Position numbers and translations under genes: made by a program
Notes under the pieces: generated by a model
What the model saw: the letters and a program-made list of their open reading frames with translations, nothing else
Told to the model about the DNA's origin: nothing
Databases searched by the model: none
Part shown: piece after piece, positions 7,721 through 23,447 of the stretch
How the letters are laid out: each line of letters starts with the position of its first letter
How positions within the stretch are numbered: position 1 is the stretch's first letter
Assembly: GCF_900155525.1 (NCBI RefSeq)
Contig: NZ_LT706951.1
Coordinates: 596,508 to 660,507 of the forward strand
DNA from: Mailhella massiliensis
GTDB taxonomy: Bacteria; Desulfobacterota; Desulfovibrionia; Desulfovibrionales; Desulfovibrionaceae
Length of the DNA: 64,000 bases
Reading direction: 5' to 3'

Positions 7721-7780
7721 GCCCGCAGCCCGGCCTGAAAAAATCGGTACGAAAAGTACCGCGGCCCGTCAAGAGGGAAT

Positions 7781-10700
7781 ATGCGGAAACCTCGCCTTGG
7801 AACGGTACTTCTGCTTCTGTGGGGGATTTTTCTCACCTCCATGGTCTACGGTTACCTCGCATGGCTTCAGCCATCGCGTCTGTCCTCCACCGTGTCCCAG
7901 CTTCTGGAATCGAAGCTCGGCGTACAGTGCAGCATAGGCGAGGTATCCCTTTCCCTGTTTCCCCTGCCCACGCTCCACGCGAGCGATCTCAGCCTTCTGC
8001 GCGGCAGCATGAACCATATGGAGCTGCACATCCGGCGCGCCCATATCCAGATAAGCTATTTTTCCCTGCTCCGCCTCAGGCCCGTCATCCGCTCCCTCCG
8101 GCTGGAAAGCCCCACGCTCGACGTTTCGGCCGATCAGCTCTCCCCTGTCGAAAAGGAAAAAGAACAGCCCTTCGCCTCCTTCACGCTGCCGAAGCTCCCG
8201 CGCAGCGTCATCGGCGTGCGCATCGTCATGGAAAACGGAACCTGCCGCCTCATCGGCGCGGAAGGCAGGGGCAGTCTCGCCCTTTCCGGCATTCAGGCGG
8301 ATTCCCGCCTGCCGGGGCTTCTGCCGGGGCATCTCAACCTTGCCGTGGAGAACATGCGCCTCGCCCTGCCTTCCGGGCTGGAAATTTCGGCCAGGGATTC
8401 GCGCCTGTCCCTCGCTTCCCTGCGCCGGGGCCTGAGCGGCGTATGGAACGGGAGCGTGCAGCTTTCCTCAGAAATGCAGCTCGGCGCGCTCGATGCCGTG
8501 CTGGGCAGGGAAATTTCCGCCCCCTACCGCTATTTCCCCATGACAAAGCCCCTCGCTCTGGACTTTTCCGCCGATTTCACCGCCTCGCCCGAATCGGGCA
8601 GCTACAGCGCGCAGGGCAAGGCCGCAGCCTCGGCCACGCTCACCATGAACGGGCATCCCGTGCCCATTTCCCTGGCCGTGCGCTTCCACATGCCCGACCT
8701 TGCAACGCCCGTCACCATAGCGGAGGCCGACGCCCGCATGGGCGACGACCATGTCACCCTCTACGGCAATGTCTCCGGCCTCACGGAAGCCTCTCCCCTG
8801 TTCCGGGGCCGGGCCGACATCCATCATTTCAGCCTCATCCGCTGGTTCGGTTTCGGGCGGCTCATGGACCCGGGCCTTCAGCAGGCGCTGGACAATATCA
8901 CAGGTTCTTTCGAGAGTATGGAACTCAGCCCCAGGGGCATCGTCGTTCCCCGTCTCAAGGCCGTGGTGCAGGATATCCCTCTGGAAGGCGAAGGAAGCTG
9001 CCGGGAATTTCTCAAGCCCGACATCCGCATCAGCGCCCATGCCAAAAAGGCCGATCTGAACCGCATCTTCCCGGAACTTACGGGCAACATACCCGACATG
9101 TCGCACCTGCCTGCGCCGGTGCTGCCCCTTGATGAAGACGACGAACCTCCGCAGCCTTCCGATATCCATGTAGGCTACGACATACACATAAGCGCCGACG
9201 AGGCCGACATTCTCGGCCTGCGCGCGGGCGGGGCCGACGTGCATGTGGTTCCCGCGCCCTCCCACGGAACCATGCTCGTCATCGAGGTGGGAAACGTGTA
9301 CGGCGGCAAAGGCTCATCCCGCGTCTATCTTCAGGACGACATCCGCGTCACGGCCGATCTCAGCCGCGTTTCCATGGACGGGCTCACCAGAGACATGGCG
9401 GGCTTCGCCGCCGTGGGCGGCATACTCAAAAAAGGCTCGGTGGATCTCACCTTCCGCCCCGGTTCCGGCCTCACCATGCTGAGCAGCCTCAGCGGCAGTG
9501 TGAAGGGCAGCCTGGAACAGGGCCGCTTCACGCTTAAAAACGGCCGTTCCCTGCCCTGGCGCAGTATGGAGGTCAATGCTCAGGCCAAGGCCGCTCCGGG
9601 CAGAAAACTCACCTCCATGCCGCCGAGCATGGATTTTCGCGGCAAATGGAACGTGACGCTCGCCACGGATGCCTGGTCCGTCACGGCGGACGCTCCCCAG
9701 GCCGCCCTCGCCTTCAGCACATCCTTCGGTCTGCCCGTCGCCATGCGCGGCCAGGCCGTCACGCTTCAGGCCTCTTTAAGCAAATCCCTTTCCGCCCTGC
9801 TTGCACGGAACATGGAATTCACCCTTTCCGGCAAGGGCAGCTTCGACATCAATAACAATACCGTATCCCTGGAAGATGCCGTGCTCCGCCACCCGGCCTT
9901 CACCGTAAACGGCGATCTTGCTCTGGCAAACTTCCCCGCGCGCCCCTCGGCCACGGGCAGGCTTTCCTTCTCCACCTCGTCGCTCAAGGAATGCGCCGAG
10001 CTCTTCGGCCTGCCCCTGCCGCAGCTTTCCGGCAGAAAAAAACTCGAGAGCGCCAGGGCCTCCGCAGGCGTATCCTTCCAGGCGGACAAGGCGGAATTCA
10101 CCGACCTTGCCCTTACCGTGGACGACACGCACCTTACCGGCCGCCTGCGGCAGACGCTTCAGGGCAGGCCGCTGCTCAGCGGAGAACTCCACTCTCCTTC
10201 CCTGAATCTCGACGACTACATGGCAAAGGACGGCGAAAAAAAATCCGGCTCCGGAACCTCGACGCCGCTGCCTCTTGATTTTCTGAAAAACAGGGATCTG
10301 GATCTTAAAGTTTCCCTTCAGAAACTGCGGGCCTTCTCCACCACGCTTTCCCATGTGGAGCTGCCCGTTTCGCAGAAAAACGGCGTTCTCTCCATCCCCA
10401 TCCGCGCCGCCTTCCCCGGCGGAGGAAGCGCTTCCGGCTCCTTCCAGGCCGCGCTTTCCCAGAACGGAACCCATGCGGATCTTTCGCTGAACGCCCGCTG
10501 CCGCGAGGTGAACATGCTCAACTTCAGCCGCGACAGGGGGCAGAAAACGCATATCAGCGGAACCGGCAGCGCAGAAGCCGATCTGCGCTCCCGGCAGAAG
10601 AACTGGCAGGACTGGAAAAAGGCTCTGGACGGAAAGCTGTCCTTCCTCGTCAGGGACGGGGCCATCATCTCTCCCCCGCAGGAGGCGCGCGGCAAAAGCT

Positions 10701-11026
10701 CGACGACCGACTTCCGCACCATGTCCATGTCGGCGGCCGTCAGCAGGGGCGTGGCCACCTGCCGGGACTTTCTCATCAAGGGTTCCCTGACCACGGTCAC
10801 CGGCTCGGGCACCGTCAATCTGGCGGCGGAAAGCATCGACGCAAGGGCCACCGTCACCCTTGCGGGCATACCGGAAATGCCCATCACCATCACGGGCAAT
10901 CTGTTCAAGCCCAAGGTCACCTATCAGCTCATCGGCGCGGTTACGGGAACGGTGGGCAACCTGGGTTCCACCTTCTTCGACATCGTGGGCGGCGTGCTTA
11001 CCGCGCCCTTCCGCCTTTTCCAGTAA
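7781..11026 (+). CDS. AsmA-like envelope protein
   Basis: A 1081-residue protein that starts with a short basic stretch and one membrane anchor (about residues 7-29), then a long periplasmic region. The N-terminal ESKLGVQCSIGEVSLSLFPLPTLHASDLSL pattern is typical of AsmA proteins, and the C-terminal 250 residues (rich in beta strands, with SGTGSAEADLR and a final TVTLAGIPEMPITITGNLFKPKVTYQ) match AsmA C-terminal domains. Family members form bridge-like grooves that move phospholipid between inner and outer membrane or aid outer-membrane assembly. Its closeness to the mla operon, 0.8 kb downstream, supports an envelope-lipid role. The start is ATG 7781 after AGAGGG. Confidence 0.8.
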   Translation: MRKPRLGTVLLLLWGIFLTSMVYGYLAWLQPSRLSSTVSQLLESKLGVQCSIGEVSLSLFPLPTLHASDLSLLRGSMNHMELHIRRAHIQISYFSLLRLRPVIRSLRLESPTLDVSADQLSPVEKEKEQPFASFTLPKLPRSVIGVRIVMENGTCRLIGAEGRGSLALSGIQADSRLPGLLPGHLNLAVENMRLALPSGLEISARDSRLSLASLRRGLSGVWNGSVQLSSEMQLGALDAVLGREISAPYRYFPMTKPLALDFSADFTASPESGSYSAQGKAAASATLTMNGHPVPISLAVRFHMPDLATPVTIAEADARMGDDHVTLYGNVSGLTEASPLFRGRADIHHFSLIRWFGFGRLMDPGLQQALDNITGSFESMELSPRGIVVPRLKAVVQDIPLEGEGSCREFLKPDIRISAHAKKADLNRIFPELTGNIPDMSHLPAPVLPLDEDDEPPQPSDIHVGYDIHISADEADILGLRAGGADVHVVPAPSHGTMLVIEVGNVYGGKGSSRVYLQDDIRVTADLSRVSMDGLTRDMAGFAAVGGILKKGSVDLTFRPGSGLTMLSSLSGSVKGSLEQGRFTLKNGRSLPWRSMEVNAQAKAAPGRKLTSMPPSMDFRGKWNVTLATDAWSVTADAPQAALAFSTSFGLPVAMRGQAVTLQASLSKSLSALLARNMEFTLSGKGSFDINNNTVSLEDAVLRHPAFTVNGDLALANFPARPSATGRLSFSTSSLKECAELFGLPLPQLSGRKKLESARASAGVSFQADKAEFTDLALTVDDTHLTGRLRQTLQGRPLLSGELHSPSLNLDDYMAKDGEKKSGSGTSTPLPLDFLKNRDLDLKVSLQKLRAFSTTLSHVELPVSQKNGVLSIPIRAAFPGGGSASGSFQAALSQNGTHADLSLNARCREVNMLNFSRDRGQKTHISGTGSAEADLRSRQKNWQDWKKALDGKLSFLVRDGAIISPPQEARGKSSTTDFRTMSMSAAVSRGVATCRDFLIKGSLTTVTGSGTVNLAAESIDARATVTLAGIPEMPITITGNLFKPKVTYQLIGAVTGTVGNLGSTFFDIVGGVLTAPFRLFQ

Positions 11027-11414
11027 CGCCCCTCCCGAAGATGCGGGGGCGGAAACGGCGCTTTCTTCCGGGCTGCTTCCCGCCGCATGAAGGCGCGGCC
11101 AAGGCTGCGCGGGGCCCTCGCCAAGCCGTCTGCACGGACAGAAAAACAGCCCGGACAGGAACACTTCCCTCTGTCCGGGCTGTTTCATGCATGTTTATTA
11201 ATGATGCGGCGTGAATGATATCCGCCGTCAGGGCGTACCGCGCAGGGCCGCGCCTTCATGCAACGGCTGAGGTCACTCTGCCCCTCGGGCGCAACGCGGA
11301 ACCTTCCCCGAAAAGGCGGAAAAAATCGCGCTTCGCCAAGCCTTTCTCCCCCGCTGCCGTATTCCCTCATCCGGGCGGCAAAAGGCCTTTTTCCGCACGG
11401 AAGCGCGCGGAAGG
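11027..11414. other. Gene-free gap between convergent genes
   Basis: Contains the bidirectional terminator at 11145-11184 and otherwise nothing recognised. Confidence 0.5.
11145..11184. terminator. Bidirectional terminator between the AsmA-like gene and hypC
   Basis: A perfect 14-bp stem AACAGCCCGGACAG (11145-11158) / CTGTCCGGGCTGTT (11171-11184). On the minus strand the stem is followed by a T5 run, on the plus strand by TTT, so it can stop both convergent transcripts. Confidence 0.75.
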
Positions 11415-11675
11415 CTACAGCGCTTCCGGCGAAAGCCCCCCGTTCACGCCGAGTTCCGCTATCTGCCGGAATATCCTGAGCGATTCCTCGGCCTCGGCGG
11501 CATCAAGGCTGCGCAGGGCAAAGCCTGCATGAACGATGACGTAGTCTCCCGGGCGCGGAGCTTCGGGCAGAAGCAGCGTGGAAATATCCATATACGTTTC
11601 CCCGCTGCCCACGCGCACGCGGGCCTTTCCTTCTTCCGGCACGTCCACCACGCATACGGGAACGGCAAGACACAT
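11415..11675 (-). CDS. hypC: [NiFe]-hydrogenase maturation chaperone HypC
   Basis: An 86-residue HypC/HupF family protein. It starts MCLAVP, where the Cys just after the initiator Met is the residue that binds the iron-cyanide-carbonyl unit and the hydrogenase large-subunit precursor. GDYVIVHAGFALRSLD is the second conserved block. The start at 11675 was chosen because the AGGAG site is 7 bases upstream and because it puts Cys at position 2; the two further upstream in-frame ATG codons are not compatible with the family. No other hyp gene is near, so this is an orphan hypC; a hydrogenase maturation protease gene lies 45 kb away at 56971. Confidence 0.92.
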   Translation of the reverse strand: MCLAVPVCVVDVPEEGKARVRVGSGETYMDISTLLLPEAPRPGDYVIVHAGFALRSLDAAEAEESLRIFRQIAELGVNGGLSPEAL

Positions 11676-11781
11676 AGGCATTCTCCTGAAAAAAACGGTC
11701 TCTTTCAAAGTTCGGCCTCTTCCTCATACTCCGGCCGCGCCCGTCATGCAAGCGCCGCATACCTTACTGCCGCAAGGCAGA

Positions 11782-11810
11782 TTGCAATGTCATGCGAAAT
11801 CGGCTAACGT
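11782..11810 (+). promoter_or_regulatory. Candidate promoter of the mla operon
   Basis: TTGCAA (11782-11787) and TAACGT (11805-11810) with a 17-base spacer, 32 bases before the mlaE start codon. Confidence 0.35.
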
Positions 11811-11842
11811 CCGAAAATTACCCCTGAGGTTAAGGTATCAGT

Positions 11843-12616
11843 ATGAATGAAATCTGCGCACCCGTGCTGAATCTTGTGAACCGCCTCGGCGAAATGGCGC
11901 TGTTTCTGTCCGACGCCGTCCGGCAGACGTGGCATTGCCGCCGTCTGGCCGGCAAGGTGCTCCAGCAGGTGTACGTCATCGGCGCAAAGTCCATGTTCGT
12001 CATTCTGCTCATCGGCCTGTTCACCGGGCTGGTGCTGGGCCTTCAGGCCTTCTATGCCATGTCCATGTTCGGCGCTCAGGGCATGCTCGGCTCCCTGCTC
12101 GCCCTCACCCTCATCCGCGAAATGGCCCCCGTGCTCACCGCCGTCATGGTCACGGCGCGCGCCGGCTCCGCCATGACGGCGGAAATAGGCGTCATGCGCA
12201 TTTCCGACCAGGTCGATGCGCTCGAAGTCATGGACATCAACCCCGTGGGCTACATGGTCACGCCGCGCCTTCTCGCTTCCGTGATCACGTTTCCCCTGCT
12301 TACGGCCATCTTCACGGTGGTGGGCATCTTCGGCGGCTATCTTTCCGCCTGCGTGCTGCTCGGGCTCAACGAGGGGCGCTATTTTTCAGGCATAGAATCC
12401 AGCGTCACCCTGCACGATGTGGAAGGCTGCTTCCTCAAGGCGGCGGTGTTCGCCGTCATCGTCATCACCGTATGCTGCTTCCAGGGCTACAACGCCCACA
12501 GAAGAAGCGACGGCAAGGGGGCCGAGGCCGTGGGCAACGCCACCACCTCCGCCGTGGTCATGAGCTGCGTGCTCATTCTCATGGCCGACTATGTCCTCAC
12601 CTCTTTCCTTCTTTAG
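11843..12616 (+). CDS. mlaE: MlaE-type lipid ABC transporter permease
   Basis: A 257-residue inner-membrane permease of the MlaE/YrbE family with about five spans. The characteristic blocks are present: GLFTGLVLGLQAFYAM, LTLIREMAPVLTAVMVTARAGSAMTAEIGVMRISDQVDALEVMDINP (the conserved coupling region, given here only by its key motifs REMAPV, ARAGSAM, EQIDAL-like DQVDAL) and NPVGYMVTPR. It forms the membrane core of the MlaFEDB complex that moves phospholipids between the membranes. It is the first gene of a five-gene run in which mlaF follows after 8 bases. No MlaB (STAS) gene is visible in the operon. Confidence 0.92.
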   Translation: MNEICAPVLNLVNRLGEMALFLSDAVRQTWHCRRLAGKVLQQVYVIGAKSMFVILLIGLFTGLVLGLQAFYAMSMFGAQGMLGSLLALTLIREMAPVLTAVMVTARAGSAMTAEIGVMRISDQVDALEVMDINPVGYMVTPRLLASVITFPLLTAIFTVVGIFGGYLSACVLLGLNEGRYFSGIESSVTLHDVEGCFLKAAVFAVIVITVCCFQGYNAHRRSDGKGAEAVGNATTSAVVMSCVLILMADYVLTSFLL

Positions 12617-12624
12617 AGGCGCGC

Positions 12625-13446
12625 ATGAACCAGCAGGCCTGGGATATCAGCATAGAACATCTGGACGGCGGCTATGAAGGCCGCCTCGTCCTTCAGGATT
12701 TTTCCGCGGTACTGCCCGCCGGAACCATCACCACCATTCTCGGGGAATCCGGCTGCGGCAAGACCACGCTGCTGCGCCTGCTTCTGGGGCTGAACCGCCC
12801 CTCCGCCGGGCGCATTCTCATAGGCGGGCGCGACGTGTGCAACATGTCGGAAAAGCAGTTCCGCAAGCTGCGCCGCCGCTTCGGCGTGCTCTTTCAGGAC
12901 GGAGCGCTCATAAGTTCCCTCACCCTTGCGGAAAACGTGGCCCTGCCCCTCGTGGAACACACCACCGTTGCCCGGAAGACGCTGCGGGAAGCGGCCCTGC
13001 GCACTCTCGAACTTGTGGGGCTGAAGGACTTTGCCGACTATTATCCCGGAGAGCTTTCGGGCGGCATGCGCAAGCGCGCAGGTCTGGCCCGCGCCATCGT
13101 CACGGAACCGCCCGTGCTTTTCTGCGACGAACCCACCTCCGGGCTCGACCCCATCACCGCCGCCCAGATGGATCAGCTCCTTCTGGACATGAAGGCCTGC
13201 TACCCCTCCATGACCACCGTGGTGGTCACCCACGATCTCGGCAGTGTGGACCATATTGCCGGGCATGTGCTGGTGCTCAGAAGCGGCAGGGCGGCCTTTG
13301 CAGGCACCAGAGAAGAACTGAAGGCGTCGCAGGATGCGTACCTGCGCCGCTTCCTTGACCGTAAATTCGAAGAATCCCGCCGTATGGCGGCCCCGCCTCT
13401 GGACAGCTCCGTGCGCCGGGCCCTCGCCGAATGGCTGGACGATTAA
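12625..13446 (+). CDS. mlaF: MlaF-type ABC transporter ATPase
   Basis: A 273-residue ABC ATPase: Walker A GESGCGKTT near residues 40-48, the Q-loop in VLFQDGAL, the signature LSGGM in GELSGGMRKRAGLARAI, Walker B VLFCDEP and the switch histidine in VVVTHD. The GALISSLT and KRAGLARA wording is typical of the MlaF/Ttg2A branch. It powers lipid transport through MlaE. ATG 12625 follows the mlaE stop by 8 bases with a GAGG site; the much longer upstream frame is a shadow of mlaE. mlaD begins 10 bases after its stop. Confidence 0.93.
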   Translation: MNQQAWDISIEHLDGGYEGRLVLQDFSAVLPAGTITTILGESGCGKTTLLRLLLGLNRPSAGRILIGGRDVCNMSEKQFRKLRRRFGVLFQDGALISSLTLAENVALPLVEHTTVARKTLREAALRTLELVGLKDFADYYPGELSGGMRKRAGLARAIVTEPPVLFCDEPTSGLDPITAAQMDQLLLDMKACYPSMTTVVVTHDLGSVDHIAGHVLVLRSGRAAFAGTREELKASQDAYLRRFLDRKFEESRRMAAPPLDSSVRRALAEWLDD

Positions 13447-16336: not shown

Positions 16337-17452
16337 TTACGCCGTGACCACCCGGCTCACTTCCTCAGCCAGGCGGGAAGCGCCGTTCTTGCTGTAGATG
16401 TTGTACAGCTCCATGGCGCTTCTCTGGGAAAGCACATAGTTGCGGAAGCTGTTGAACACCCTGCCCTCGAGGTCCTTGCCCCTGATGTTGTAGCGTTCGG
16501 CGGCAATCTTCTTCAGTTCCGCGGTAAGCCACTGTGCGGCGGGCACGCTGAGCACCCAGTCGTGGTCGGCCAGATGGGTGACGAAGCCCTCGGGTCTGCG
16601 GGGCAGAGGCAGCGTTTTGCCGTCCTTTTCCAGATAGCCGTTCGCCACGGGGTCCTTTCCGGCAATGATGGCGGCCGCCCTGATCCAGTTCACCACGGAG
16701 GCCTCCAGCGCCGAGGTTCCGGGATGGTCGTGAGCGCAGGCCTGGGCCACGCACACTTCCGCAGGAAGTCCCTTGTTCATGGATTCGGCCACGCTCAGGA
16801 TATGATGCGCGCCGGTACCGGCAATGGAAGCTTCCGGCAGGCAGGAGGCATCGTCCTTCCACTGGAACACCCACGGTTTATGCACGTCGTGCAGAAGCTG
16901 GGAGGCCAGGGCCACATCCCTGTCCACTTCCATGTGGAATATCGTTCTGTAGTTGTCGCACAGGGCCTTGGCGCTGGCCACGTTGAGCGCAACGTGCGTG
17001 ACAAGACCGCCGGGGTAGGCATGGTGGCTCCCCCAGCCGCTGCCGGGAGCGGAATAGGAAGGCTGCGGAGCCTTGTCGGCGCCTGCACAGGCGGGGAAAA
17101 TACCGGCGGCCTTTTCCTCCAGCAGCTTCGCCTTCTTCAGTTCGGCAACAAGGGCCTTTTCATCGTTCTTCGCCACCCGGGGCGCAGGATTTTCCAGCAT
17201 GTCGAGCACCGCGCCGCGCAGGGAGGCGTTCACGATTTCCCCGGCGGAATCCTTCATGTAGCGCCATGCGTCCATAACCTTGGCGGAACTTTCCGCCATC
17301 TGCCGGGGCGTCATGGAAACGCATTCCTCAAGGCTGACGACCTTCACCTTGCCGGGAGCGGCCGCAAAGGCTCTGGACGTCATGCCGCCCATGGCGAAGG
17401 CCGCACCGGCAACCAGAGTTCCGAACATAAAATCACGTCTGCTGCTGACCAT
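16337..17452 (-). CDS. Tat-exported HD-domain protein of unknown substrate
   Basis: A 371-residue protein with a twin-arginine signal: VSSRRDFMFGTLVAGAAFAMG then a cleavage region RAFAAAP. The start at 17452 follows GGAGGAAAAA and puts the RR pair at residues 5-6; the longer frame upstream would bury the signal. The mature part has an HD-like metal-binding pattern: HHAYPGGLVTHVALN, LLHDVHKPWVFQW, AHHILSVAE and CAHDHPGT. HD proteins are metal-dependent phosphohydrolases or related lyases, mostly cytoplasmic, and a Tat-exported form suggests a metal-loaded enzyme folded before export to the periplasm. It is a single gene with its own terminator. I do not know its substrate. Confidence 0.72.
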   Translation of the reverse strand: MVSSRRDFMFGTLVAGAAFAMGGMTSRAFAAAPGKVKVVSLEECVSMTPRQMAESSAKVMDAWRYMKDSAGEIVNASLRGAVLDMLENPAPRVAKNDEKALVAELKKAKLLEEKAAGIFPACAGADKAPQPSYSAPGSGWGSHHAYPGGLVTHVALNVASAKALCDNYRTIFHMEVDRDVALASQLLHDVHKPWVFQWKDDASCLPEASIAGTGAHHILSVAESMNKGLPAEVCVAQACAHDHPGTSALEASVVNWIRAAAIIAGKDPVANGYLEKDGKTLPLPRRPEGFVTHLADHDWVLSVPAAQWLTAELKKIAAERYNIRGKDLEGRVFNSFRNYVLSQRSAMELYNIYSKNGASRLAEEVSRVVTA

Positions 17453-17805
17453 AGTTTTTCCTCCATGAATATATGCCTTATCGAGCACGTCTAGAGAAAT
17501 ATCCTGCCGCTGTAACGGCACCATGAAGCGATTATGAATTTTACTGCGGCATGATACCGTGCTCATGATGCAATTCATGAAGAAGCATGACGCAATTTTT
17601 ACAAGAATATGAAGCCTTCCTGCCTGGCGGCGCTTTTTTCTTCCTGCCGGATTCACCGGTGCTGCATTTCTCTGCATGGGAAATGCCTGTGCCTCATGCT
17701 CCCGGATTTTTCCGACGAATAAGGGGGCTTCCCTGTTTTTCGGGGCCGTTTTTCTGCAGAAAAACGGAAAAAGAAAAAAAATTTCTTCAAACCCTAAAAA
17801 AATGC
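17453..17805. other. Gene-free gap between the HD protein gene and tRNA-Leu
   Basis: Holds the ribosome-binding site and presumably the promoter of the minus-strand gene, then an A-rich stretch (17760-17805) before the tRNA promoter. No gene is seen. Confidence 0.5.
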
Positions 17806-17833
17806 TTGCCAAGGGAGGGCAAATCGTCTACTT
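17806..17833 (+). promoter_or_regulatory. Candidate promoter of tRNA-Leu
   Basis: TTGCCA (17806-17811), a 16-base spacer and CTACTT (17828-17833), ending 10 bases before the mature tRNA. Confidence 0.4.
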
Positions 17834-17843
17834 ACACACCTGT

Positions 17844-17930
17844 GCCGAAGTGGTGAAATTGGTAGACACGCTAGGTTCAGGGTCTAGTTCCCGTTCGGGA
17901 GTAAGAGTTCGAGTCTCTTCTTCGGCACCA
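17844..17930 (+). tRNA. tRNA-Leu (anticodon CAG)
   Basis: An 87-base gene including the encoded CCA. Acceptor stem GCCGAAG (17844-17850) pairs with CTTCGGC before ACCA. The D loop has the AAATTGGTAGA pattern, the anticodon stem CTAGG/TCTAG frames the loop TTCAGGG with anticodon CAG, a long variable arm (TTCCCGTTCGGGA) marks it as a class II tRNA, and the T arm contains GTTCGAG. These features fit bacterial tRNA-Leu reading CUG. A terminator follows 13 bases later. Confidence 0.95.
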
Positions 17931-17943
17931 GCAGAAAGCATGA

Positions 17944-17976
17944 AGCCCGGAAGACAATACGTCTTCCGGGCTTTTT
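17944..17976 (+). terminator. Rho-independent terminator of tRNA-Leu
   Basis: Perfect 12-bp stem AGCCCGGAAGAC (17944-17955) / GTCTTCCGGGCT (17961-17972) followed by TTTTCTTTT. Confidence 0.9.
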
Positions 17977-18026
17977 CTTTTCCTCCGTCTTTCTTTTCCT
18001 GTCCGGCCTTGCGGCACAACGTGGAA

Positions 18027-18055
18027 TTGAATTTCATGCGGCGCTATGTTAACTT
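18027..18055 (+). promoter_or_regulatory. Candidate promoter of the esterase/ATP-grasp module
   Basis: TTGAAT (18027-18032), a 17-base spacer and TAACTT (18050-18055), located after the tRNA terminator and before the first esterase gene. Confidence 0.42.
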
Positions 18056-18117
18056 CGGGGAAACAACGCTCCGCACGTTCCTTTGCCTCAGCGGAGAAAA
18101 GGAAGCTTGTTCACTCT

Positions 18118-18888
18118 ATGGTCAAAACATGGAAACTCTCCATTCCTGAACTTACCGGCAGGGAAAGACGCCGCGCCTACGTCTACCTGCCCACCATGTA
18201 CAGGGAACAGCCGCGCCGCCGCTTTCCGGTACTGTACATGTTCGACGGGCACAACGTGTTTTTCGATTCCCACGCCACCCACGGCAAAAGCTGGGGGCTG
18301 GGGGAATATCTCGATTTTCTGGACGTGCCCATCATCGTCGCCGCCGTGGAGTGCAACCATCATCCCGACAACGGCCGTCTTTCCGAATACTCTCCCTACG
18401 ACTTCACCGATCCCGAGTTCGGTCCCGTCACGGGGCGCGGCGAAATCACCATGGAATGGCTTGCCAACACCTTCAAGCCCCTCATCGACAGGCGCTTCCG
18501 CACCATTCCCTGGCGGGAGCACACCTTCATTGCGGGCAGTTCCATGGGCGGCCTCATGAGCCTGTACGCCGTAACGAAGTACAACGAACTCTTCTCCCGC
18601 GCGGCCGCGCTCTCTCCCCACATCTGGGCCGATAAAAAAAGGGTGCTCCAGCTCATCCGCACCACCCCTCTCACTCCCGACACCGTCATCTACATGGACT
18701 GGGGCTCGGAGGAGTTCGGTGGCGACAAGAACATGACGCACGATCTGCGCCGCCTGGTGGACGTGCTGCTCGACAAGGGCGTGCACCTCACCTCGCGCGT
18801 GGTGCCGGGGGGAGAACACAGCGAAGCAAGCTGGGAACGGCAGATTCCCTTCTTCATGGAAACATTGATGTACGGCCTCGAAGGCTGA
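18118..18888 (+). CDS. Esterase-fold alpha/beta hydrolase (enterochelin-esterase-like)
   Basis: A 256-residue cytoplasmic protein of the esterase D/Fes type. RRAYVYLPTMY...FPVLYMFDGHNVFFD is the family entry, GSSMGG at residues 140-145 carries the nucleophile Ser142, and GGEHSEASWERQIPFF supplies the catalytic His with its usual flank. ATG 18118 was chosen as the first Met that begins the domain; GGAAG lies about 13 bases upstream, which is rather far. The gene is followed after 20 bases by a second esterase-fold gene and then an ATP-grasp gene. The three probably act together on one compound; no substrate can be read from the sequence. Confidence 0.78.
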   Translation: MVKTWKLSIPELTGRERRRAYVYLPTMYREQPRRRFPVLYMFDGHNVFFDSHATHGKSWGLGEYLDFLDVPIIVAAVECNHHPDNGRLSEYSPYDFTDPEFGPVTGRGEITMEWLANTFKPLIDRRFRTIPWREHTFIAGSSMGGLMSLYAVTKYNELFSRAAALSPHIWADKKRVLQLIRTTPLTPDTVIYMDWGSEEFGGDKNMTHDLRRLVDVLLDKGVHLTSRVVPGGEHSEASWERQIPFFMETLMYGLEG

Positions 18889-18908
18889 ACCGACAAGGAG
18901 GACACGAT

Positions 18909-19664
18909 ATGCAGACAAGATATTTCAAGCAGTACAGCCCCGCCCTCGGCCGCGACATGGAGTGCAAGGTCTACGGTCACGCAGGCAGACCGCTGCTGTT
19001 CGTGCCCTGCCAGGACGGGCGCTTCTTCTCCTTCGAGGACTTCCACATGTCCGACACCATGGCCCCGTGGATCGAAAGCGGCAGGCTCATGGTAGTGGCC
19101 ATCGACACCATCGACCAGGAAACCTGGTCCAACCGCGGCGGCGATGCATGGTGGCGCATCCGCAGGCATGAAGCCTGGATGAACTACATCTTCAACGAAG
19201 TAACGCCCTTCACCCAGCATCTGGCGCACACGGCCAACGGCTGGGAAAGCGACGCCGGTATCATCGCCTTCGGGTGCAGCCTCGGCGCGCTGCATGCCGC
19301 CAACCTGTACCTGCGCCGTCCCGACCTGTTCAACGGGCTTCTGGCCCTTTCGGGCATCTACACGGCTTCCTTCGGTTTCGGCGACTACATGGACGAAGTG
19401 GTCTACCGCAATTCCCCCGTGGACTACATGGCGAACATGCCTTCCGACCACCCCTACATTTCCCTGTACAACAGCCGCCGCGCCGCCATCTGCGTAGGCC
19501 AGGGCGCATGGGAAATGCCGGAAACCACCCGCCGCCTGCAGGAAATATTCGAGCACAAGGGAATCCATCTCTGGGTGGACATCTGGGGGCACGACGTGAA
19601 CCACGACTGGCCGTGGTGGTACCGTCAGGTGGAATACTTCATGCCCTGGCTGCTCGGGGAATAA
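18909..19664 (+). CDS. Second esterase-fold protein of the module
   Basis: A 251-residue alpha/beta hydrolase-like protein related to but clearly different from its upstream neighbour. It has a GxSxG nucleophile elbow, GCSLG at residues 122-126 with Ser124, a strand LLFVPCQDGRFFSF where the oxyanion region usually lies, and HDVNHDWPWWYRQVEYFMPWLL with possible catalytic His residues near the C-terminus. A strong CAAGGAGG site precedes ATG 18909. Such proteins are annotated as putative esterases; some relatives transfer acyl groups instead. It is followed by a 175-base gap and the ATP-grasp gene. Confidence 0.75.
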   Translation: MQTRYFKQYSPALGRDMECKVYGHAGRPLLFVPCQDGRFFSFEDFHMSDTMAPWIESGRLMVVAIDTIDQETWSNRGGDAWWRIRRHEAWMNYIFNEVTPFTQHLAHTANGWESDAGIIAFGCSLGALHAANLYLRRPDLFNGLLALSGIYTASFGFGDYMDEVVYRNSPVDYMANMPSDHPYISLYNSRRAAICVGQGAWEMPETTRRLQEIFEHKGIHLWVDIWGHDVNHDWPWWYRQVEYFMPWLLGE

Positions 19665-19839
19665 CGGCGCATCGCACGCCCGGGGCCGCCCTTCCCCGCC
19701 CCGCAAGGGCCCGCCGCATCAGAAAATGCCGCCGTATGATAAACCATGTTGATGTTGCCGATAAAAAACGAAAACAACAAAAATCCGAACGGAAAACAAC
19801 ATCACTGTCCGGCGGTACGCCAATAAAAAGGAAACGCCC

Positions 19840-21036
19840 ATGAAAAACTTCGTGTTCATCTCGCCGAATTTTCCCGTCAACTACTGGAAGTTCTGCCATC
19901 ACCTCAAGGCCGACGGCATCAACGTGCTCGGCATCGGCGATCAGCCCTATGCCGAACTTCTGCCGGAACTGCGCGACAGCCTTCAGGAATACTACAAGGT
20001 CGGCAGCCTGGAAAACTACGATGAGGTTTACCGGGCCATGGGCTACTTCATCCACAAATACGGCCGCATCGACTGGCTGGAGTCCAACAACGAATACTGG
20101 CTGGAACGCGACGCGGCGCTGCGTACCGACTTCCACATCACGAGCGGCTTTCAGACGAGCGACATGCCGCGCATCCGCTACAAGTCGGGCATGAAGGAAT
20201 ACTACCAAAGGGCCGGCATCGCCACCGCGCCCTACACGCTGGTGGAAAGCAGGGAAAACTGCCTCGCCTTCATCAAGGAAACGGGCTGGCCCGTGGTGGT
20301 CAAGCCGGACAACGGCGTGGGCGCGTCGGATACGCGCAAGCTCACCTGCGAAGAGGATCTCGATGACTTCCTCGCCCGCAGGCACCCCGGCGTGCGCTAC
20401 ATCATGGAAGAATTCATCCATGCGGAAATCAACTCCTACGACGCCATCTTCAATTCCCGGGGCGAGCCCATCTTCGAAACCGGCAACGTCACGCCCATAT
20501 CCCTCATGGACGTGGTCAACGAAGCGGACAACGCCATCTACTACCTGCTCAAGGAACTGCCGGAAGACACCCGCGCCGCAGGCCGCGCCACGGCAAAGAG
20601 CTTCGGCGTGAAGAGCCGCTTCGTGCATTTCGAGTTCTTCCGCCTCACGCAGGACCAGAAAGGCATGGGCAAAAAGGGCGACATCGTGGCTCTTGAGGTG
20701 AACATGCGCCCCTGCGGCGGCTACAGCCCGGACATGATGAACTTCGCCTGCAGCACCGACGTGTACAAGATATGGGCCGACATGATCGCCTACGACCGTT
20801 CCACCCAGCCTGTGGGGGAACACTTCTACTGCGCCTTCGCCGGCCGGCGCGACGGCAAGAAGTTCAAGCTCTCCCATGAAGACATCATGGCCCGCTACGG
20901 CGCGCAGATGAAGATGGTGGGCCGCATTCCCTCGGCTCTGGCCGAGGCCATGGCCGACCAGATGTACATGGCCAACTTCTCCACCATGGAAGAAATGCGG
21001 CGCTTCTACGCCGACGTGCTCGCTCCGCAGGACTAG
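19840..21036 (+). CDS. ATP-grasp ligase of the esterase module
   Basis: A 398-residue cytoplasmic enzyme. WPVVVKPDNGVGASDT is the ATP-grasp nucleotide loop (about residues 148-163), IMEEFIHAEINSYDAIF the middle strand, and LEVNMRPCGGYSPDMMNFA contains the metal-binding Glu and Asn of the fold. The N-terminal FVFISPNFPVNYWKF and ESNNEYWLERDAALR belong to the pre-ATP-grasp domain of the carbamoyl-phosphate-synthase/carboxylate-amine ligase type. Such enzymes join a carboxylate to an amine or thiol with ATP hydrolysis. With two esterase-fold partners this suggests making, then trimming or transferring, a small peptide- or ester-like compound. The product is unknown. AAAGGAAAC precedes ATG. Confidence 0.8.
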   Translation: MKNFVFISPNFPVNYWKFCHHLKADGINVLGIGDQPYAELLPELRDSLQEYYKVGSLENYDEVYRAMGYFIHKYGRIDWLESNNEYWLERDAALRTDFHITSGFQTSDMPRIRYKSGMKEYYQRAGIATAPYTLVESRENCLAFIKETGWPVVVKPDNGVGASDTRKLTCEEDLDDFLARRHPGVRYIMEEFIHAEINSYDAIFNSRGEPIFETGNVTPISLMDVVNEADNAIYYLLKELPEDTRAAGRATAKSFGVKSRFVHFEFFRLTQDQKGMGKKGDIVALEVNMRPCGGYSPDMMNFACSTDVYKIWADMIAYDRSTQPVGEHFYCAFAGRRDGKKFKLSHEDIMARYGAQMKMVGRIPSALAEAMADQMYMANFSTMEEMRRFYADVLAPQD

Positions 21037-21584
21037 AAGAAGCTCTTTCGCGGCCCGGTTCGCCTGTCTCCCAAGGAAAGGCGCACCGGGCCTTTGTTTC
21101 TTTTCTCCCGGCAAGAGGATGAAGGGCAAGACCCCTTCCCGAGGGATTCCGCAGCTGATCTGCCGCTGGAAAGGGCCGTATGTTCCACGGACGCTCCGGC
21201 CCGCGCCGGAAATGACGGCGGCCTTCTGCCCGGAAGAGGGCGAAAAAAGCTGCCGCACTCCGCCTCCGCCGGCCGGAAAAACATCGCCTGCGGATGCTGC
21301 CTGCGAGAGTTTCAGGCAAGAATATGAGCGTATCCGCTCTGGACAAAAAGGCGCTCTTTTCCAAAGATGGGAGGCGGAAAGCCGCCCTTCCGTATCGAAG
21401 AAGGCAGGAGCGGTCCTTCCCGGCTGCTTCCGGCATTCCGGTACGCCTCGCATCCGCCCCCTTGCCGTGCGCCGACTTCCGGGAGAGGGAACAACGCCGT
21501 ATTTCACCGCGCCGGGCACGCCCGGCACACAACCATCGCAACGGCTCCAGACAAGCCGCGGCGCATACGCGCCTGGAGGAGAAT
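21037..21584. other. Gene-free gap after the ATP-grasp gene
   Basis: Holds the terminator at 21052-21104. The frame that continues upstream of the flavoprotein gene from 21294 is Arg-rich, has no ribosome-binding site and matches nothing I know; I treat it as non-coding. Confidence 0.5.
21052..21104 (+). terminator. Rho-independent terminator after the ATP-grasp gene
   Basis: Stem GGCCCGGT (21052-21059) / ACCGGGCC (21085-21092), extended inside by TCGCCT / AGGCGC, followed by TTTGTTTCTTTT. Confidence 0.8.
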
Positions 21585-22118
21585 ATGAAAAACATCCTCA
21601 TCATTTCCGCAAGTCCGCGCAAAGGCGGCAATTCCGAACTTCTGTGCGAATCGTTCATGAAGGGAGCTCTCGAAGCCGGGCACAAGGTGGAAATCGTGCG
21701 CCTGCGCGAGCACGACCTGCATCCCTGCTTCGGCTGCGAAGCCTGCCAGGCCACGCACGCCTGCGTGCAGAAGGACGGCATGGCTCCCCTGCTGGACAAG
21801 CTCCTTGCCGCCGACGTGGTGGTCATGGCCACGCCCGTGTACTTCTATTCCATGAACGCACAGATGAAGACCTTCATCGACAGAACGCTTCCGCACTACA
21901 CCGAAATTTCCGGCAAGGAGTTCTACTTCATCGCCACCGCCGCCGACAGCAACCGCTCCGCGCTGGAACGCACCATCGACGCCTTCCGCGGCTTTACCGA
22001 CTGCCTGGAAAAGCCGCAGGAAAAAGGCGTGCTGCTTGCGCCCGGCGTGTGGAAAAAGGGCGACGTGGCCTCCAGCCCTGCCATGGAACAGGCCTTTGCC
22101 ATGGGCCGCAACGCCTGA
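21585..22118 (+). CDS. Flavodoxin-like NAD(P)H-dependent FMN reductase / iron-sulfur flavoprotein type
   Basis: A 177-residue flavodoxin-fold protein. ISASPRKGGNSE (residues 8-19) is the FMN phosphate loop. HPCFGCEACQATHAC gives Cys48, Cys51, Cys54 and Cys60, close to the cysteine cluster that binds a 4Fe-4S centre in Isf-type flavoproteins of anaerobes. ATPVYFYSMNAQMKTFIDR is the second FMN-binding signature. Likely role: electron transfer or quinone/oxygen detoxification in the cytoplasm. ATG 21585 has GGAGGAG 6 bases upstream. It stands alone. Confidence 0.85.
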   Translation: MKNILIISASPRKGGNSELLCESFMKGALEAGHKVEIVRLREHDLHPCFGCEACQATHACVQKDGMAPLLDKLLAADVVVMATPVYFYSMNAQMKTFIDRTLPHYTEISGKEFYFIATAADSNRSALERTIDAFRGFTDCLEKPQEKGVLLAPGVWKKGDVASSPAMEQAFAMGRNA

Positions 22119-22245
22119 GCTGCGCTTCGGCCTTTTGCGGGCCTGGCGATTCTCGCCAAGGGCGCACAAGCCTCCTTCCTCTGCCGCATGAAGGCCGCAT
22201 GAAATGCCCCGCCCTTTCGGGCTTCGCTTTCGTCTGATACCGGGG

Positions 22246-22271
22246 GCGGAGCGGGCCGCCGCCCGCTCCGC
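22246..22271 (+). terminator. Hairpin after the flavoprotein gene
   Basis: Perfect 11-bp stem GCGGAGCGGGC (22246-22256) / GCCCGCTCCGC (22261-22271). Only a loose T-rich tail follows (CTTTTCC at about 22281). Confidence 0.5.
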
Positions 22272-22319
22272 TTCCCGCACCTTTTCCTCCAAAACACGCC
22301 CCCGGCTCCGCACCTGCCT

Positions 22320-23447
22320 ATGCGACTTCTCCTGCCTTCCGTCATCGCCGCCGTCTACTGCTTTATGAGTCTCGTTCTTCCCTTGAAGGCGGGCTTTGTC
22401 CTCAAGGCCCTCATGGGCGCGGCATTTCTGGCCGCAGGGCTCAAATACGTCTTCTATCAGGTGGTGGGCGGAGGCTTTTTCCGGCCGGAGCTGCCGATTC
22501 CCGTCATGCTCGCGGCGGAAGCCCTGTACGCCGCGCTGCTGGTGCTCTTTTTCCTTGCGCTGGTCAAGGATGCGGCAAGCCTCGGCCTGTGGCTGGCCCG
22601 GCGCATGGGCGCTTCGTGGCGCATGCCCCTCACGGGCGGCATACGCTGCACAATCCTTGTGGTTCTGGCTCTGGCAAGCGGCGCATGGGGCACATGGCAG
22701 GCCGTGCGTGTACCCGATGTGCATACCGTGGAACTGGAGCTGGAAAAACTTCCAGCAGAACTTGAAGGTTTTACCCTTGTCCAGCTCAGCGATCTGCACA
22801 TAGGCCCGGTGCAGAAGGCCGCGTGGCTTGAAGAAGTGGTACGCAGGGTCAACGCCCTCTCCCCGGATGCCGTGGCCATCACCGGCGATATTGCAGACGG
22901 CCTGCCCCGTGCGCTCAGCAGAGAAATGGCCCCGCTGGCAGAGCTCAGGGCGAAATACGGCGTGTTCGGGGTCACGGGCAATCACGAATATTACTACGAC
23001 GCACGCGGCTGGCTGCAGGAACTTTCCTCCCTCGGCGTCATCATGCTGAACAACGAACACCGCGTGCTTCCCGGCGGGCTCGTCATCGGCGGCGTTCCCG
23101 ACAATACCGCGGCCCGTTTCGGCGGCCGGGGAACGGATGTGAAGGCCGCGTTTTCCGGCGCGCCCGAGGGGCCGCGCATTCTTCTGGCCCACAAGCCCAA
23201 CGACAAAGGCCTGCCCTCTTCCGTTGCGGACGTGCAGCTTTCCGGCCACACCCACGGCGGACTCATCTTCTTCCTCGCACCGCTTATCGGCCATTACAAC
23301 GACGGATACGTCCTCGGTCTGTACCATACGCCGCAGGGCAAGCTTCTCTATGTCAGCCCGGGTACGGGCCTGTGGAACGGCTTTTCCTGCCGCCTCGGCA
23401 TACCCTCGGAAATCACCCGCTTCGTGCTGAAGACCAAAAGGCCGTAA
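22320..23447 (+). CDS. Membrane-anchored metallophosphoesterase (YaeI/YkuE type)
   Basis: A 375-residue protein with about four hydrophobic spans in the first 135 residues and a calcineurin-like phosphoesterase domain after them. The metal-binding motifs are all present in order: SDLHIG, GDIAD, GNHEYYYD, and GHTHGG. Relatives such as YaeI cleave lipid A precursors or other phospho-lipids at the membrane, others act on unknown phosphodiesters. It is a single gene; I see no clear site upstream of ATG 22320 except a weak CCTGCCT region, so the exact start is less certain than the domain call. Confidence 0.82.
   Translation: MRLLLPSVIAAVYCFMSLVLPLKAGFVLKALMGAAFLAAGLKYVFYQVVGGGFFRPELPIPVMLAAEALYAALLVLFFLALVKDAASLGLWLARRMGASWRMPLTGGIRCTILVVLALASGAWGTWQAVRVPDVHTVELELEKLPAELEGFTLVQLSDLHIGPVQKAAWLEEVVRRVNALSPDAVAITGDIADGLPRALSREMAPLAELRAKYGVFGVTGNHEYYYDARGWLQELSSLGVIMLNNEHRVLPGGLVIGGVPDNTAARFGGRGTDVKAAFSGAPEGPRILLAHKPNDKGLPSSVADVQLSGHTHGGLIFFLAPLIGHYNDGYVLGLYHTPQGKLLYVSPGTGLWNGFSCRLGIPSEITRFVLKTKRP

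Follow-up and report, generated by a model that had tools for sequence, protein, structure and literature searches.

Do the genes for two esterase-like proteins and an ATP-grasp enzyme that lie side by side in Mailhella massiliensis form a functional unit, and what reaction could such a unit carry out? The genes are found in a 64,000-nucleotide stretch of contig NZ_LT706951.1 (positions 596,508 to 660,507, hereafter "the window"; the source genome comprises 3.47 Mb in 28 contigs).

The Gene Trio and Its Surroundings

All three open reading frames reported by the initial annotation on one strand at positions 18118–21036 were confirmed. E1 (18118–18888, + strand, ATG start, 256 amino acids) codes for a PF00756 serine esterase, E2 (18909–19664, + strand, ATG start, 251 amino acids) for an esterase-D-like serine hydrolase or acyltransferase, and AG (19840–21036, + strand, ATG start, 398 amino acids) for an ATP-grasp ligase resembling L-amino acid ligases. 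In comparisons with four relatives, each gene was under purifying selection (dN/dS 0.08–0.20, 12/12 gene comparisons), and E1, E2, and AG are therefore working genes. E2 is followed by AG after 175 nt, and the RNA structure of the gap is unremarkable (z −0.53). We infer that the three genes share a single transcript. Their GC content gives no sign of transfer (0.600 vs. 0.615 in the window). A simple hydropathy scan revealed no hydrophobic N-terminus in any of the three proteins, which are thus presumably cytosolic. Further upstream, an open reading frame on the − strand (16337–17812 of the window) carries a twin-arginine-like signal, SSRRDFMFG.

Strong terminators had been proposed on either side of the trio, and both hairpins exist. 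The one 3′ of AG (21052–21092, + strand) has a T-rich tail, lies inside a fold of −33.6 kcal/mol (z −2.5), and is a likely terminator. The upstream one (17942–17974, 14 bp plus a T-run, −25.8 kcal/mol, z −6.4) was assigned no strand and is terminator-like on the − strand too. It starts 12 nt past the end of a tRNA-Leu (CAG) gene predicted by ARAGORN (17844–17930, + strand), an upstream neighbour outside the module, and is therefore most simply the terminator of that tRNA; a module-boundary role for it was dropped. The promoter-like sequence reported upstream was not recovered in a σ70 consensus scan of positions 16500–22500, which returned 0 sites vs. 1.2 expected by chance; other promoter types are possible.

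AG and E2 Form an Obligate Pair

The initial annotation had proposed co-occurrence of the trio's genes in other genomes as a check, and the outcome is strongly positive; the constant core is the obligate pair of AG and E2, however, and not the triplet, for E1 is a part that is gained and lost. On 78 GTDB contigs, found with the query's own peptides and hence biased to close relatives, the order E1-E2-AG on one strand within 2.5 kb was seen in 60 of 79 AG copies, and 53 of the 57 copies with enough flank had at least one esterase beside AG. Apart from lineage-bound genes, no recurrent partner gene was found in this close set, and no transporter, regulator, or multi-gene pathway. Protein distances of E1, E2, and AG correlate across 56 triplets (Mantel r 0.69–0.85, reached by 0 of 999 permutations).

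Three genome samples (own-phylum, Oscillibacter-centred, and Bacteroidota-type) were searched with profiles. Of 297 genomes of the own phylum, 12 carry AG; E2 was found in 9, each of them an AG carrier. The three AG genomes lacking E2 are G161, G178, and G296. Ten of 12 E2 copies lie 15–185 nt from AG, and the remaining two occur together in G099. On contig C22 of that genome (locus L176), these E2 copies stand without AG at 8585–9619 and 12163–12912, one of them directly after a glycogen/starch-synthase-like gene. Among 299 genomes around Oscillibacter valericigenes, AG was present in 10 and E2 in the identical 10, always adjacent (26–129 nt); in one of them (G429), E2 contains one internal TAA stop, and this pseudo-split was kept as found. 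The two centre genomes had been picked for having AG and were hence left out of the statistics. With this exclusion, E2 was present in 8/11 AG carriers vs. 0/285 non-carriers in the own phylum (Fisher's test, 1e-13) and in 9/9 vs. 0/289 in the Oscillibacter-centred sample (2e-17), values that overstate independence, since the sampled genomes are related. The E2 profiles were built from copies mostly neighbouring AG, so distant AG-less kin of E2 may escape them. With E2 in no other sampled genome, these pairings place the functional link between ligase and esterase near the maximum that gene content can provide. In the Bacteroidota-type sample, AG was detected in 3/296 genomes; two of these matches were weak (E 1e-42 to 1e-45), and neither E1 nor E2 was found on the 16.5–17 kb of sequence that contains each of them.

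Gene arrangement was compared in 27 mostly profile-found AG copies, namely the second copy of the M. massiliensis genome, the full profile matches from the own-phylum and Oscillibacter-centred samples and from one further search, and two single copies; G802, G810, and an AG fragment in G1008 were omitted. An esterase was beside AG in 22/27, mainly as AG-E2 or E2-AG, with four AG-E1 and two E1-E2-AG loci. In the other five (L102, L109, L110, L160, and L161), neither E1 nor E2 was found on the same strand within 2.5 kb, and L109 has an E1-like gene on the opposite strand. The G1008 fragment, cut by a contig end, had no E1, E2, or Agu matches (Agu genes are discussed below). Three of the four annotated-plasmid AG loci used are AG-E2, and one has no esterase; a Streptomyces plasmid match (L150, 25% identity) was excluded from the neighbour count. 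The second AG-E2 pair of the M. massiliensis genome, at G000:C27:451819-453743 (L084, about 7820–9744), has no E1. Its AG and E2 are 50% and 49% identical to those of the trio, and the pair recurs in several congeneric genomes. No third E2 was found in the genome at E 0.001. From the partnership as a whole, we infer that E1, E2, and AG act in one pathway.

Distribution and Likely Origin of AG

The nearest public matches to AG are contigs of Mailhella, a gut genus of Desulfovibrionaceae, at no more than 91% identity. AG was found in 12/19 genomes of the same genus, 1/28 others of the family, and 0/32 of the order; in this sample, gene neighbours were checked for the two copies of the window's genome and for G337 (the esterase-less L161). 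A quick tree built from 62 AG rows places the five Mailhella rows within gut Bacillota, where they join first to a metagenome-assembled genome labelled Faecalibacterium (SH-aLRT 98); deeper forks of the nesting have supports of 89–94, and several are open. The simple reading of this tree is a transfer of AG from Bacillota to Mailhella. A misbinned contig could explain the Faecalibacterium neighbour alone but not the wider nesting. AG also occurs on three scaffolds from the human gut that are deposited as UNVERIFIED Bacteriophage sp. (L188, MT836893.1; L189; L190). One of them holds the whole trio, and the scaffolds resemble bacterial DNA in a phage collection.

AG Resembles L-Amino Acid Ligases

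AG matches ATP-grasp Pfam models solely below their cut-offs. Its predicted structure is that of a full-length ATP-grasp ligase (pLDDT 89.9), with Foldseek and VIA-align matches covering residues 1–398 of the model. The full-length fold is shared with the L-amino acid ligases RizA (4wd3), BL00235 (3vot), and BacD/YwfE (3wnz, 3vmm), which take Foldseek ranks 1, 2, and 3 (RizA, E 2.7e-25). The best VIA-align matches are BL00235 (Z 29.6) and RizA (Z 29.3), followed by PurK-type enzymes from Z 26.6; BacD/YwfE has Z about 25. The AG profile matches RizA at 3.5e-21. In both fold and sequence, AG is thus closest to known L-amino acid ligases, which agrees with the carboxylate-amine type proposed initially. 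No close AG homologue of known function turned up.

ATP/Mg motif residues of the ligases are retained: Lys155, Glu190, Glu286, Asn288, and Arg290, which we take by analogy to bind ATP and Mg, are invariant in 23/23 alignment rows. AG differs from the ligases in sequence (identity of 19% or less) and in its constant esterase partner. E1, E2, and AG all score below the cut-off of every NCBIfam model; for AG, the best score is 28.4 bits vs. a cut-off of 625. AG is therefore treated here not as a member of the L-amino acid ligases but as an enzyme that may act in their manner. An amide product would not be forced by the predicted fold, for PurK, biotin carboxylase, and others are only slightly weaker matches.

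One RizA study gives T81, K83, and S84 as acceptor-pocket residues (PMC9321006); in our alignment, they correspond to AG Asn84, Tyr86, and Trp87. Asn84 is found in 21/23 rows and Tyr86 in 14/23 (otherwise H, F, or T), Trp87 is present in 23/23, and the intervening Glu85 is invariant. Because Trp87 and Glu85 are invariant and Asn84 nearly so, AG likely acts on one conserved acceptor.

E1 and E2 Are Serine Esterases of the PF00756 Type

Two esterase-fold proteins, each with a GxSxG elbow and a possible catalytic His, had been recognized from the outset, and the closer comparison bears this out. E1 and E2 match PF00756 at 82.7 and 40.6 bits, respectively (cut-off 22). Nucleophile elbows (GSSMGG in E1, GCSLGA in E2), acid, and His follow in the expected order in both proteins. 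The likely triads are Ser142-Glu199-His234 in E1, invariant in 12/12 alignment rows, and Ser124-Glu202-His232 in E2, invariant in 25/25; in the predicted E2 model (pLDDT 96.2), each triad residue sits just past a core strand. By sequence, E1 is related to CE1, ferulic acid, and siderophore esterases. The E2 model best matches Esterase D/S-formylglutathione hydrolase, CE1 ferulic acid esterases, and antigen 85 (top matches 7yvt, 5vol, 7xrt, and antigen 85C). E2, for which COG4947 is a candidate label, is about 15–18% identical to its PF00756 relatives and has a Trp-rich C-terminal motif of its own, H232-D-W-x-W-W. Antigen 85 is a secreted protein; E2, in contrast, has no N-terminal hydrophobic stretch.

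A Model for the Function of the Module

On balance, we favour the view that E1-E2-AG is a self-contained cytosolic module with an obligate AG-E2 core, in which one metabolite undergoes both ATP-driven amide formation and the cleavage or shift of an ester or thioester. The trio probably makes or remodels one small molecule. The initial annotation had suggested a peptide-like or ester-like compound, but no sign that such a product is made or released emerged from the analysis. AG would act in the manner of L-amino acid ligases, using ATP to convert a carboxylate to an acyl phosphate and handing this to an amine, with a small amide as product; the identity of both partners is a guess. In E2, and in E1 where present, the catalytic serine would become acylated as an ester or thioester of AG's metabolite is cleaved or shifted. 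The esterase step would most likely free the carboxylate before ligation or unmask the product after it, the order of steps again being a guess. The ligase and the serine esterases have no regular companion of a third kind, which suggests that the pathway is short and starts from common metabolites. Bacilysin-type and other ATP-grasp dipeptide pathways share the ligase type with AG; unlike bacilysin-type pathways, the trio has no companion multi-gene pathway, transporter, or regulator.

The same pairing could also reflect a make-and-break cycle, in which AG builds a small amide as a store or signal and E2 or E1 hydrolyses the AG product; cyanophycin synthetase and cyanophycinase are a comparable pair. 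That a ligase and a serine hydrolase occur together with no further constant partner is consistent with such a cycle. So is the presence of E1 in place of E2 in genus g133 (all four full AG genomes), as expected if hydrolysis suffices. The nearest folds of E2 are, however, esterases, thioesterases, and acyltransferases rather than amidases, and we consider the cycle rather unlikely.

The gene neighbourhood in genus g133 raises the question of the amine. All four full AG genomes of this genus have the order AguA-AguB-AG-E1 (L108, 5901–9811; L184–L186), where AguA is agmatine-deiminase-like and AguB is N-carbamoylputrescine-amidase-like, a pair that would convert agmatine to putrescine. In a second family, AguB-AguA lies within 5 kb of AG and E1, as seen in G296. 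Agmatine deiminase matches were present in 28/297 own-phylum genomes at E 1e-60, none of them over the curated cut-off, and their link to AG was not significant (3/12 genomes with AG vs. 25/285 without, p 0.09); the M. massiliensis genome has none at E 1e-60. A polyamine link as a general rule was rejected on these grounds and is retained as a lineage hint. A bolder reading is that AG-E2 is an undescribed module to which E1 was added later, and that in gut bacteria and in several other phyla it makes one conserved amide whose amine part is a polyamine or agmatine derivative. In our estimate, this is improbable.

Other AG neighbours are of mixed types, and no shared theme is claimed for them. 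Aminopeptidase N is encoded 5′ of AG-E2 in three loci of one genus, an M18 and an M20 peptidase 5′ of E2 in two loci of the Oscillibacter sample, and methyltransferases 5′ of AG in G161 and on a Massilia plasmid; histidine-breakdown genes are close to AG in L058 and L146. In the latter locus, from Peptoclostridium acidaminophilum (7776–13043), two 3-deoxy-7-phosphoheptulonate synthase genes flank AG-E2, with the histidine-breakdown genes beyond. The Massilia plasmid locus (L149, 5872–9173) has a class-III aminotransferase, a methyltransferase, and then the AG relative, with neither E1 nor E2 alongside, and is possibly a natural-product variant.

E2 could alternatively acylate the AG product in the manner of antigen 85, which transfers mycolate. 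The best fold matches of E2 include antigen 85 entries, and the mutants in the titles of these entries (S124A, E228Q, H260Q) point to the same kind of Ser-Glu-His triad. Yet a TM-score of about 0.7 at 14–18% identity is also reached with plain esterases ranked equal or higher, which makes the transferase reading somewhat more doubtful still. Modification of a ribosomal precursor peptide by AG is very unlikely. Some graspetide loci do pair an ATP-grasp enzyme with an α/β hydrolase, according to PMC8939145, but the hydrolase given there belongs to pfam00561 vs. PF00756 in the trio, and a small test found no precursor gene close to the trio. By fold, AG is closest to amino acid ligases and PurK-like enzymes, no recurrent extra open reading frame of at least 80 amino acids lies near the trio, and, in that test, four short + strand frames (20–90 amino acids, in the gaps and 560 nt past AG) had no match in the loci of 10 relatives at E 0.01. 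An anti-phage or other conflict system, which patchy spread, transfer between lineages, and the three scaffolds filed as phage might bring to mind, is the least credible reading, as PADLOC-DB gave 0 families for E1, E2, and AG at E 0.01, the genes around the module are housekeeping genes, and the scaffolds filed as phage are short and unverified.

Significance

The initial annotation regarded the trio as a candidate for a new small system. Its components are known enzyme superfamilies, and what stands out is their unusually faithful partnership, an obligate one that we did not find described; the module was not found named in any paper, in a literature search whose coverage of subscription journals is thin. 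Being three small, soluble-looking enzymes, the trio is cheap to test. For the module as we favour it, the product, if found, would be a metabolite common to gut Bacillota and Mailhella, and would give functions to two protein groups now named just "ATP-grasp domain-containing protein" and "alpha/beta hydrolase-fold protein".
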